Part shown: positions 27,183 through 64,000 of the stretch, piece by piece
Numbering within the stretch: the stretch's first letter is position 1
Layout of the letters: the number at the start of each line of letters is the position of its first letter
Assembly (NCBI GenBank): GCA_006384855.1
Contig: VCJN01000053.1
Span: 62,001-126,000, forward strand
Direction: 5' to 3'
Length of the DNA stretch: 64,000 nt
Source of the DNA: Tetraselmis striata
Lineage: Eukaryota > Chlorophyta > Chlorodendrophyceae > Chlorodendrales > Chlorodendraceae
Position numbers and translations under genes: made by a program
The notes under the pieces: model-generated
Seen by the model: only the letters and a program-made list of their open reading frames with translations
What the model was told of the DNA's origin: nothing
The model's database searches: none

Positions 27183-28218
27183 TGTAGCACCGCCCTCCCC
27201 TCCCCTCTCCCCTTGCGACGCACTCACACACACCTCCTTTCCACTGAGGTTGCCAGGGTAGAAAGTTAGCAAGACTTGGCAGGTAGACATGGAAAGTAAC
27301 ACCTTGCGCCCGTTACTCGTATTGGTGACATCTTCACCAATCCCACAGGTTCACGAATCGGCCGCATTGAGTGGCGGTGCAGTGCCCTGGTGGTCATATC
27401 CGTCGTCATGGAATGATGGAACGGTAGTCCCCTTCTCCTTAGGAGTGGATACACAATGCGGTACCGCATGTATAACCCCATGCATGGGACGCATGCAAGC
27501 AACTCCGTTTGCTTGCCTTCTGCTCGCCACACTGAGCTATTTGTGGATTCAATGATACAAAAAAGTATTCCTGCATTGAACGCCGGACAAGGAAACGCGA
27601 AATCACCTGCCGCCGCCCAATCACAGCGGCAAAGCGGGCAGGATAGGTGTGCACCCACGGGGGAGGATATGAGCCATGCGCCCACACTAGGTGTTGAGCT
27701 TGCAGGCCTGGGGTGCCGAGGGTGGGCCATGCCGGACCCCGTGGGACCCACAACGAATCAACAAACCGACGCTACGATAAGGCAACGGGCTCTCTCCCGG
27801 GCCGCAACAACGCCCCATGCACCACCAACCACCCCATCAAAGTGAGGTTCCCACGCAGGGGCGCCTCCAGGTCGCCCTTGGTGGTGTAGCGGGCCCTTGA
27901 TCGACAGTCGGCCACACAAAGCCGCCGAGTGCGCCACCGCGCGGATGGTCCTCCGCACGCCCTCGCTCATCTCGCCGACACTGCCAAAGACCATGCCGGT
28001 GTGGGTGTGCATGTCCAGGATGGTGGCAAGAGGCCCAATGGGGCACACTGAAGTACTTGAACTACTCGTAGGATTGGCCTTTAGATGCAACAATCAACGG
28101 GCCCAGCCGACCCTCTGCGGGCTCACAACGCCGGGCCGCATGACAGTCGGCATGTGGGCGCTGCTCTAGAGAAGGGTGCAACCGATTATGAGATTTTGCC
28201 GGTCCACAAGGACAAATG
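27183..28218. other. Unit region downstream of the STR6-like gene; no supported gene
   Basis: About 1 kb at the left of the unit. Minus-strand frames are open here and there (PIGPLATILDMHTHTGMVFG; LLSMSTCQVLLTFYPGNLSG) and look somewhat coding-like, but they do not form a consistent gene across the three copies. They may be remnants of an unidentified gene or part of the 3' UTR of the hydrolase gene. Confidence 0.4.
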
Positions 28219-31200
28219 TCATTGCGGGACCGGGGGTGCCGGCTCCGTTTCCTCTACCAGCGCCCTCGGTGCTTCGGCGTCATGCCGGCCGGGTTGGCCC
28301 CGCCCCGCCAAGAAGGCCCGGTAGCGCGATACAAAGGGGCGGCTGCACGGGACCACGTGCCCGCTGTCGTGCGTCACCACCGTGGACGCCGCGGCATCGA
28401 AGGACGCCGCCAGCGCGGCGCTCTCGCTCGGGGGGACTTGGGCGTCGAGGCCGCTGGTGCTGTAGACGTGCAGGGAGGGCAAGCTGATGGGCGGCAGCGC
28501 CTGCAACAGGTCCGCGATCCGCTGGCTCGGCGCCACGGGGTAGCCTGCCGGGCGAGCGGCGATGTCAGGTGATGTCAGGTGGGGTGTGGCGAAACATGTT
28601 TGAAACTTGAAGTTTCCTGCATCTTCAGTGGTAGCAGTTTAGGGTTCCATAAAACCTAAATATAGATATTCAGGGGTTCCCGTAAACCCTAAATCGCGCA
28701 GGCCAGCTGTCGGACGGCCCGACTACATGAACCCGCATAGGGTCGGCTGGGGCCGTAGCATTTAGTCCTCATGACTACATGCCACTCCTGAGCCCAATAT
28801 CAAGGCCACACCCGGGCGACTGCATCAAGACTACACCGGCCCAATGTCAGGACTATATGCATGCAGCAGTAACAGCATGTTCCGCCCTGGCGCACAACGC
28901 CGGGTGCTATGTTATGTGCCAGGGGCGAACCTAGCAGCGCGATCGCATGCTCACGACGGTGCAAATGACAACGCTGACGGCACTCACCAGCCCAATATCA
29001 ACGCGCGATGCGCACCAGCCAAGTCAAGAAAGGCAATGGCGTCCACATGACGGCGATGGCAGCAACAATGCATACACTTTTACACTAAACAACAGCAAAC
29101 ATAACGGCTCCATATTGGCGGCAGATTACTTCACGCTGGCCGTCTTGACACAGTTGTTCATTTCGGTACGAAACCAACTTAGTGGGGAATCGGGTCCTTG
29201 GGTGGTGCGGTGTAGGTGTGCCATCAACGCTGCGTCATTCGCTGTTGAGTAGGGGCCGAACCGCACGTGTCTTCACATCCGGCAACGAGGACACGACCCG
29301 GAAGGTATGGGTTTGAAAAGGAGGGGGGGGGGTGTATGCGGGGCAAGGAGACGCGGCGGCAGTTATCAGTACGGTGCTAGTCGGTGGCGGCTAAGAATAT
29401 CGTTTTATCTATGTGAAGGGGCGCTCGGAATAGTCCGTCGGCTGTAGTTAATATCGCGACGAGTGCCGATTCTTTGAGGTACAACAATTCCTCCCAGCAC
29501 GTGTAACAGCACGTGTTACCAAGCTGATAGGTCCACGTGTCCAAAGAGGAGGGCGCGAAGGAGCGGAAGGGGGCGGGGGGACACGGGGCGTGCCTGAGCA
29601 GAGCCAGGCAAAGGCGATGGGCCGGCCACCGAGCAACGCGCACGCCTCGTCCCACTCCTCCACCGCCGCGGCGGCGTTCAGCCCACCCCGCTCCAGCTCC
29701 GCGCGGTGGCCCACGAGGTGCTGGAGGGCGCACAGATGAGCGGCGACGCCTGCGCCCTGGCGGCATCGCCGTTCCCCTGTGGGTCAGTTCGCTGGTGCGC
29801 CTACTCCCACCTCTGACATAGTGACCCCTGGCTTGGGATAGTCAGCTTTGGCTACGGGACATTCATTATACAAGGGACATCTGGTATCAGCCTCCTCCTC
29901 CTCCTCCTCCTCCTCATCATCACTCGCTTCACGGACCACTCAGGCTTCCTCTCTCAGATAATCATTGCACACTGACATTACACCGGGGTGCCATCGCCAC
30001 CCCTTGAGCGGGCTGTGAAAGCAATCCGGACGACTCCTCATTCACCACTTGTGACGGTTTGGTTTGAACCATACGTCACCGTCACATTGCCGGAAATAAT
30101 GCCACCCCACACTGAATCATTGTACCTGCACCTGCTGATCACCGTCATCAGTCAGTCCTCAATGCATTCGTTCAAATGCCTCCGAATGCGGCCCTACTTG
30201 TGTCCTGCAGCGTGTGGCCCAGAGACTCGCTCAACAGCTTACCTGCGGTTGCTGACGCGGCAACAAGAACACCGCGAGTAGGAACCTGCCCTGCCTGTTA
30301 GAGGTAACAATGTATACTAAACCAAACCCGTTCCTTATGAACTGAATGCACGCCCAAGTTGAGGCTGATATCACGGGATCTTATGGGTGAGTCCGGCACC
30401 CGTAGAGGCGCCAAAAGCAACGGCGGGGGCTTGGGCGGTGGCAGTGCGCGAGGGGGCGGTGGCGCGGACGGCGCGGGCGGCTGCCCCCACCTGCGAGAAG
30501 CCCATGACGCCGTCAAAGGGGCCGTCCTCCCTGAGGGCCCTCGCCAGCTCGCGCCAGGAGGCCGCCCAGCCCTCCGTCTCCCGCTGGTGCTGCCCTTCGG
30601 CGCAGTGCGCGGGCGCCGGCTGCCAGCCTGCCTGCCCCGTTCCCTCCTGCTGCCCGGATGCACTGCGCGGCAAAGTTGGGCGGCGCTGTGAGTGACTCAT
30701 TGGAGGAGTGCGTAGACGTGGTTGTGGCGGCATCGGCAACGGCAGCGGCAGCGGCGGGAGCAAGCAGGGGCAGGGGCGGCAGCATGGGTAGCAGCGTCGG
30801 TGTCATGAGCACCCGTAGCCGTAGCCATAGCCGTGGTGGCATCGGCTTTGGTAGTGATATGGGGCGCAGAGGGAGCAGCAGCGGCAGGAATCAAAGCGGC
30901 AGAGGACGCAGCAGCCGTAATAACTTCGGCAGCAGCAGTGGGGACGGCGGCAGCAACAGCGGAAGCGGTAGAGATATCGGCAGCGTCAAGAGCAATGACA
31001 GCAGCTGTAGCCGTAGCAGTAGAGGTGCCGGCAGCGTCAACGGTGGCAGTTGCGATCACAGCGTCGGCGGCAGTGGCAGCGGGAGCGGCGGCAATGGCAG
31101 CAGCCCCCACCTGGAGGGTCTCTGGCGTCACGAGCCACGCCCTCTGCGGCTGCCCAGACGGCGGCGGCAGCTGCAGCAGGCACAGGCAGTCAGCGAGCGG

Positions 31201-63400: not shown

Positions 63401-64000
63401 GGGGCATACCACAAGGCAGACACACGAATCCACGTAAACATAGACCTCTGATCGACGGGTCGGGCAGGTTCGCAGTCGCGGCGTCGTTGCCGCATCGGCA
63501 TTACCCGCAGCTGGTAGCTGGGCTACGGCTGGCCCCACCTGACAGCTGCACGACGTCCTGGAAGCCGTCCCCCTTGGCCCGGAGGTACGCCGAGGCGCGC
63601 TCGCAGCGCACGCCGCCCGTGCAGTACATCATCACGCGCTTACCGCGCAGCCGCTCCGCGTTTGCGTCCGCCCACGCGGGGAAGTCGCTGAACTGCCGCG
63701 TGCACGGGTCCTCCAGCGCGATCCCTGGCTGCCATGCCGGCAGGGCACTCGCAGCCTCAGGTACTGCCTTGCAAGCCTGACACATGCGTCCCGGCGCTGG
63801 ACCACAGGTGTCCAGGTAGATGCAGGTGTAGACATACACATGCTCGTCTGCATTTACACCCAGCCGGGCGCGTGGGTTGCAGCACTACAACGCCCCACAG
63901 TGGAGCCCTAATCAACATGCACACACACACACACCACCATTTGGGACTCGGGCGAGTTCTGGATGCTGCTTGCGGCGCAATCTATGGCTGTTGGCACCGT
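57419..64000 (-). CDS. STR6-like TrhO/rhodanese-FSH1 fusion, unit 3 (partial at window end)
   Basis: Exons 4-11 are in the window, with exon 4 at 63,728-63,539, exon 5 at about 62,357-62,178 and exon 11 at 57,744-57,419. Exons 1-3 lie beyond 64,000. All visible exons keep the frame and key residues: [23 protein letters not shown], the cysteine-rich segment, LHGFRQ, GFSQ, LDAQVPP and HDSGHVVP. Compared with unit 1 there are only a few substitutions, for example Trp for Arg after CALLGG in exon 10 and Lys for Thr before DGFF in exon 5. It is potentially functional. Confidence 0.82.
59899..60203 (+). repeat. Intronic inverted repeat, arm A, unit 3
   Basis: Counterpart of 30,706-31,073. Complementary to 62,421-62,777. 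Confidence 0.88.
62421..62777 (-). repeat. Intronic inverted repeat, arm B, unit 3
   Basis: Reverse-complement partner of 59,899-60,203. The pair encloses exons 5-8 of the unit 3 gene. Confidence 0.88.

Follow-up and report, generated by a model that had tools for sequence, protein, structure and literature searches.

The closest described counterparts of the gene treated here are bacterial TrhO and the rhodanese-like domain-containing protein 6 of plants and green algae. Bacterial TrhO is described as making 5-hydroxyuridine at tRNA position 34, with its CXGGXR active loop responsible (PMC6599085), and a coconut survey is reported to name a homologue of protein 6 as a candidate TrhO (PMC10298058). 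A dedicated functional study of a fusion of TrhO with the serine hydrolase FSH1 was not among the publications found by our literature search, as far as their available text goes. We analysed a window (the whole stretch of DNA, 64,000 nucleotides) of the green alga Tetraselmis striata that holds a tandem array of units, each carrying a gene for such a predicted TrhO-rhodanese-FSH1 protein. The window is C42:62001-126000, where C42 is the 175.7-kb contig VCJN01000053.1 of assembly GCA_006384855.1 (224,097,584 bases in 2,903 contigs). The array is very probably an ordinary tandem segmental duplication, set in an algal genome rich in repeats.

In self-BLASTN, positions 27183-49545 of the window align to 41811-64000 at 94.9% identity, gaps counted, and 27183-34915 align to 56392-64000 at 93.0%. 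Together with the contig sequence following the window, these matches resolve into three collinear head-to-tail units, A, B and C, with periods of 14,628, 14,581 and 14,507 bp (Table 1). The first two periods are exactly those given in a preliminary description of this DNA, which had reported tandem collinear copies. Chance cannot account for 14.6-kb repeats of such identity. The array was also said to continue beyond the window; indeed, unit C runs on and ends at C42:132898, 6,898 bases beyond window base 64000, but within C42 this extends the array by only half a unit, after which it stops. No fourth unit was found after unit C when the units were compared with the following sequence of C42. 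Each unit contains one TrhO-rhodanese-FSH1 gene, one old degenerate element and the ~600-bp tip of a high-copy repeat. The 34-base sequence that spans the junction between units occurs at four sites in the genome (twice in C42, once in contig C2290 and once in contig C285), all of them mismatch-free in a search that permitted up to 2 mismatches and in which the reversed sequence, used as control, gave 0 matches. The copies are thus head to tail, collinear and joined by one shared junction, as in a tandem segmental duplication.

Exon reconstruction and Pfam searches bear out the earlier statement that each complete unit carries a whole TrhO-rhodanese-FSH1 gene. Our first model had 11 exons, and the twelfth was added on the basis of the annotated models P0001-P0003. 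Copy C is open over all 12 exons, and 11 of its 12 exon peptides match the T. striata model TSEL_000569 (P0001) exactly; exon 11 differs by splice choice. The donor of this exon is GC, not GT, in all six copies, and the annotated model of copy C is spliced otherwise there. For unit B, 9 of 12 exon peptides match TSEL_000567 (P0003), and the B-like units of C2290 and C285 each match TSEL_033263 (P0002) in 9 of 12. The four Pfam domains UPF0176_N, Rhodanese, Rhodanese_C and FSH1 were all found, in this order, in both P0001 and the 602-residue model of copy A, the Rhodanese score being just under the cut-off of 22.2 bits in the former (21.6) and just over it in the latter (22.4). The TrhO part of P0001 scored 182.6 bits against a cut-off of 170 for the NCBIfam TrhO equivalog, and the TrhO part matches PDB entries 9j5o and 4f67 by sequence. 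The motifs CTGGVR, GFSQG, SGLD and HDSGH are present in copies A and C, the two tested; the Ser, Asp and His of FSH1 are catalytic.

A search for protein homologues, in which the 7,995 best candidates were scored, gave 599 matches. Nearly all of the 120 listed, mostly from land plants and green algae, share the domain set, so the fusion is not new. Many of them are named rhodanese-like domain-containing protein 6 (short name STR6), and identity to the named land-plant members listed was 34-47%.

The units were called near-identical in the preliminary description, which is too strong. Substitutions were counted at 312 of 14,403 aligned sites between A and B (2.17%), 432 of 14,387 between A and C (3.00%) and 279 of 14,377 between B and C (1.94%), in addition to many insertions and deletions (indels). 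For the same three pairs, exons differ by 1.32, 1.74 and 1.53%, and introns by 3.68, 5.02 and 3.38%; exon divergence is significantly the lower in every pair. Downstream of the gene the values are 3.43, 3.32 and 0.10%. In the distal 5.2 kb, about a third of the unit, only 19/5165 (0.37%), 49/5174 (0.95%) and 37/5181 (0.71%) sites differ. The closest pair of units switches along the unit: sites at which one of A, B and C is the odd one out fall into 177 runs, compared with a mean of 313.1 after shuffling (the lowest of 2000 shuffles was 274). Conversion or unequal exchange among the copies would produce such a mosaic. To call the amplification recent, as had been done, was an overstatement: introns are 3.4-5.0% apart, though the distal third is only 0.4-1.0% apart. 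The age of the array is ambiguous, since the introns suggest an old array and the distal third a younger or homogenised one.

Several observations weigh against a tandem segmental duplication, or against how firmly it can be read. The very uneven divergence just described does not fit a single duplication age, and consensus building across repeats could add part of the mosaic. The array is known from assembled sequence alone. Copy A, alone among the copies, has one extra G at the start of annotated exon 10, so the annotated start would shift the frame, and the copy is open only if the acceptor lies a few bases further downstream. In copy B, 15 private indel columns fall in exons (4 in exon 8, 1 in exon 11 and 10 in exon 12), and the frame is broken as assembled; the clustering of these indels looks like poor consensus, not decay, and assembly errors may be involved. 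The ratio of nonsynonymous to synonymous substitution rates (dN/dS) is clearly below 1 for A-B (0.38, p = 0.019) and A-C (0.36, p = 0.004) and is 0.69 for B-C (p = 0.24). These codon counts were made after alignment columns absent from copy A had been dropped, so that the frameshifts of B and of the further copies A2, B2 and B3 (see below) lie outside them.

The low divergence of the distal 5.2 kb could also mean that the array is young, having been amplified recently under selection for a higher dosage of TrhO-FSH1; the intron divergence would then be older allelic variation joined by unequal exchange. In keeping with such an account, an open reading is possible for two of the three placed copies, and C2290 and C285 hold extra unit sequence. 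Copy B, however, is broken as assembled, which speaks against selection for dosage. In addition, a search of the assembly with P0001 (71 of 83 candidates scored) placed the matches to FSH1 in C42, C2290 and C285 only; in three other contigs, C194, C445 and C2880, the match was confined to the TrhO part. A TrhO-type protein is, therefore, probably not limited to the array. We consider a young array selected for dosage unlikely.

The extra unit sequence amounts to ~2.75 unit-equivalents. C2290 (25,408 bp, ~1.75 units) consists of an A-like unit, A2, which differs from A at 60 of 12,349 sites, and a B-like unit, B2, which differs from B at 65 of 12,817, the differences being clustered. C285 (14,612 bp) is one B-like unit, B3, which differs from B2 at 16 of 12,843 sites. 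Private exon indels were seen in exon 11 of A2, exons 1-3 of B2 and exon 3 of B3; A2 ends before exon 12. These contigs may represent further units, alleles or unmerged duplicates. Both start at the same unit base (= C42:116707), which falls within the inner element's right terminal repeat, and C285 is exactly one unit long. Graph breaks in a repeat give such a pattern. The clustered private single-base indels likewise resemble patches of poor consensus. Both features would suit an assembly artefact, in which divergent haplotypes or unmerged contigs had been stacked into a false array. Yet three mutually distinct copies lie within the single 175.7-kb contig, which also contains two identical junctions, and a false duplication would hardly cut the high-copy repeat twice at the same base. 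The private variants of each placed copy, together with a single sharp breakpoint that is identical throughout, make a simple artefact unlikely. The flanks argue in the same direction. Short dispersed repeats aside, a search of the assembly found no second version of window positions 19000-27182 and 10300-14700, and on the other side C42:150000-156000 is repetitive in its middle, with no match elsewhere for roughly its first 0.8 kb and last 1.9 kb. The best 40 candidates were scored in these searches, which should have included any second haplotype; unique flanks without a second version thus disfavour a second haplotype retained around the array. Taken together, we give an artefact very little credence.

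The two ends of C285 fall on neighbouring unit bases, as would those of a circle cut once, and the gene unit might accordingly also exist as an extrachromosomal circle, or in a larger copy-variable array. If so, the copy number of the TrhO-FSH1 gene would be a variable trait in the alga. C285 is explained just as well by a graph break in the tandem repeat, which is likelier than a circle, and we hold both the circle and the larger array to be highly doubtful.

How the first junction arose can be approached from its edges. Every assembled junction joins a point ~600 bp inside the high-copy repeat to the first base after the left flank. The tip of the repeat is 603 bp long in unit C, as listed for unit B; past unit C the repeat continues to about C42:141964, so the break at C42:132898 lies inside it, and in units A and B the repeat is truncated at the corresponding base. 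A 4.9-kb part of the repeat has matches on at least 24 other contigs (26 of 2,888 candidates scored). The left flank, in turn, ends in sequence unrelated to the repeat, and no microhomology is visible at the founding joint in the boundary sequences. In the unduplicated locus the two joined points stood about one unit apart. Founding of the array by unequal crossing over between two flanking copies of the high-copy repeat, to which the position of the right breakpoint would lend itself, is scarcely credible and was rejected, because the junction joins unrelated sequences and the repeat is missing from the left boundary, the nearest copy found leftward being 20 kb off and inverted (window 986-6864).

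Under the tandem segmental duplication that we favour, the first junction would have come from end joining or template switching, as suggested by the lack of microhomology and by a left edge without a repeat copy. Unequal exchange between the 14.6-kb units could then have made further copies, and conversion may have kept the copies mosaic. The copies would have been retained because at least one, and probably two, appear still to encode a working protein.

Table 1. Positions of the array, its genes and its repeats in the window and in contig C42
Feature	Window position	C42 position	Strand	Remarks
Unit A	27183..41810	89183-103810	+	14,628 bp; from self-BLASTN and boundary sequences
Unit B	41811..56391	103811-118391	+	14,581 bp; from self-BLASTN and boundary sequences
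Unit C	56392..64000 (first 7,609 bp)	118392-132898 (whole)	+	14,507 bp
Tandem junction A/B	41793..41826	103793-103826	+	34-base sequence
Tandem junction B/C	56374..56407	118374-118407	+	34-base sequence
Gene of unit A	28219..36586		-	12 exons, 632 codons, open in the reconstructed model
Gene of unit B	42882..51199		-	Matches TSEL_000567; ends from protein matches; exons as in A
Gene of unit C	57422..64000	on to 127687	-	Matches TSEL_000569; first exons beyond window end
Old mobile element, unit A	37086..40762		+	Terminal direct repeats ~183 bp; right end approximate
Same element, unit B	51687..55316		+	Ends approximate
High-copy repeat tip, unit A	41219..41810		+	592 bp, ends at A/B junction
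High-copy repeat tip, unit B	55789..56391		+	603 bp, ends at B/C junction
Inverted partial copy of high-copy repeat	986..6864	62986-64838 and 65900-68864	-	Outside the array; compared with C42:137115-132296

The inner element lies upstream of the gene and measures 3.1-3.7 kb across units. In unit A its right terminal repeat is split by an insertion of ~483 bp (40158-40640), and an alignment of the two terminal repeats shows 13 differences at 170 aligned sites and a further 26 columns with gaps. Since the units differ from one another by only 0.4-1.0% in this region, the element probably inserted well before the array formed. Relatives with 77-82% identity over the longest stretch are present on at least 32 other contigs (39 of 3,324 candidates scored). 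The element protein has 168 homologues at E <= 0.001, and 119 of the 120 listed are from Tetstr1, taken here to be T. striata. A precomputed column assigns Phage_int_SAM_1 to 6 of these 120, and the domain was confirmed in all four that were scanned (P0183, P0192, P0214 and P0232). The annotated protein of the array element, P0121, is 62% identical to P0192 over 216 columns, reaching the SAM-like part, and degenerate remains of the array element align to a relative.

Domain scans were run on single open frames. With Pfam and PHROGs we detected no recombinase domain in the scanned open reading frames (ORFs) of the array element, some of its frames being unscanned, nor in annotated P0121, and none in the scanned open frames of the high-copy repeat. 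A few weak matches in ORFs of the element and the repeat seemed fortuitous; they either fell short of the Pfam cut-offs or involved phage families whose function is unknown. The description of a recombinase element in each unit holds, then, for the family, which has members with a tyrosine-recombinase N-terminal domain, but no such domain appeared in the scanned frames of the array copy; judged from sequence comparison, the label seems fair for the family and was not borne out for the array copy. Right of the array, C42:167340-168340 and 146583-149598 hold two more pieces of this element family, with about 77-78% identity to those inside the units.

Other features were noted in and around the array. 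Within the gene of unit A, a ~370-bp inverted repeat (window 30706-31079 and 33265-33635) has arms that are 94% identical and stand in two introns, with exons between them; it has counterparts in units B and C. A short dispersed repeat in an intron of the gene (34000-34141), like one left of the array (20661-20774), has matches of ~88-95% identity on dozens of contigs among those listed. The inverted copy of the high-copy repeat includes a minisatellite (window 2656-3664) in which the 24-bp unit CAGTGGGACGAAACGGTTTGTCAT is present 42 times, and similar arrays, at about L010:2412-2831 and 4906-5549, read as repeated peptides in the repeat copy that lies right of the array. Left of the array, an ORF at window 11699-12892 has a Pfam match (E 1.9e-22) to the C-terminal part of a protein kinase domain. 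An open frame at L010:9017-10000 has a weak, sub-cut-off Pfam match to a reverse transcriptase zinc-binding domain (E 0.047), perhaps marking a retroelement right of the array. Searches of the window for Rfam families, at the gathering score, and for tRNA genes gave no match.

The value of the locus lies mainly in annotation, that is, in the gene models and the extent of one locus. It is also a clean example of a duplication in which one of the breaks fell within a high-copy repeat, and it may offer a natural copy-number series for the TrhO-FSH1 fusion.

With the bacterial oxygen-dependent tRNA U34 hydroxylase TrhO (YceA), the algal protein shares the CXGGXR loop, which reads CTGGVR in copies A and C; unlike the bacterial enzyme, the predicted algal protein is fused to an FSH1 serine hydrolase. 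The rhodanese-like domain-containing protein 6 of Acorus has the same four Pfam domains in the same order, and we saw no difference in architecture from protein 6 of plants and green algae generally, the tandem copy number alone being unusual. As an array, the locus resembles Sdic of Drosophila as described in PMC7475035, with head-to-tail gene copies, a similarity among copies that hinders assembly, and conversion as a possible force. It differs from Sdic in having its breakpoint in a high-copy repeat, and the Tetraselmis array is known here through its sequence only.

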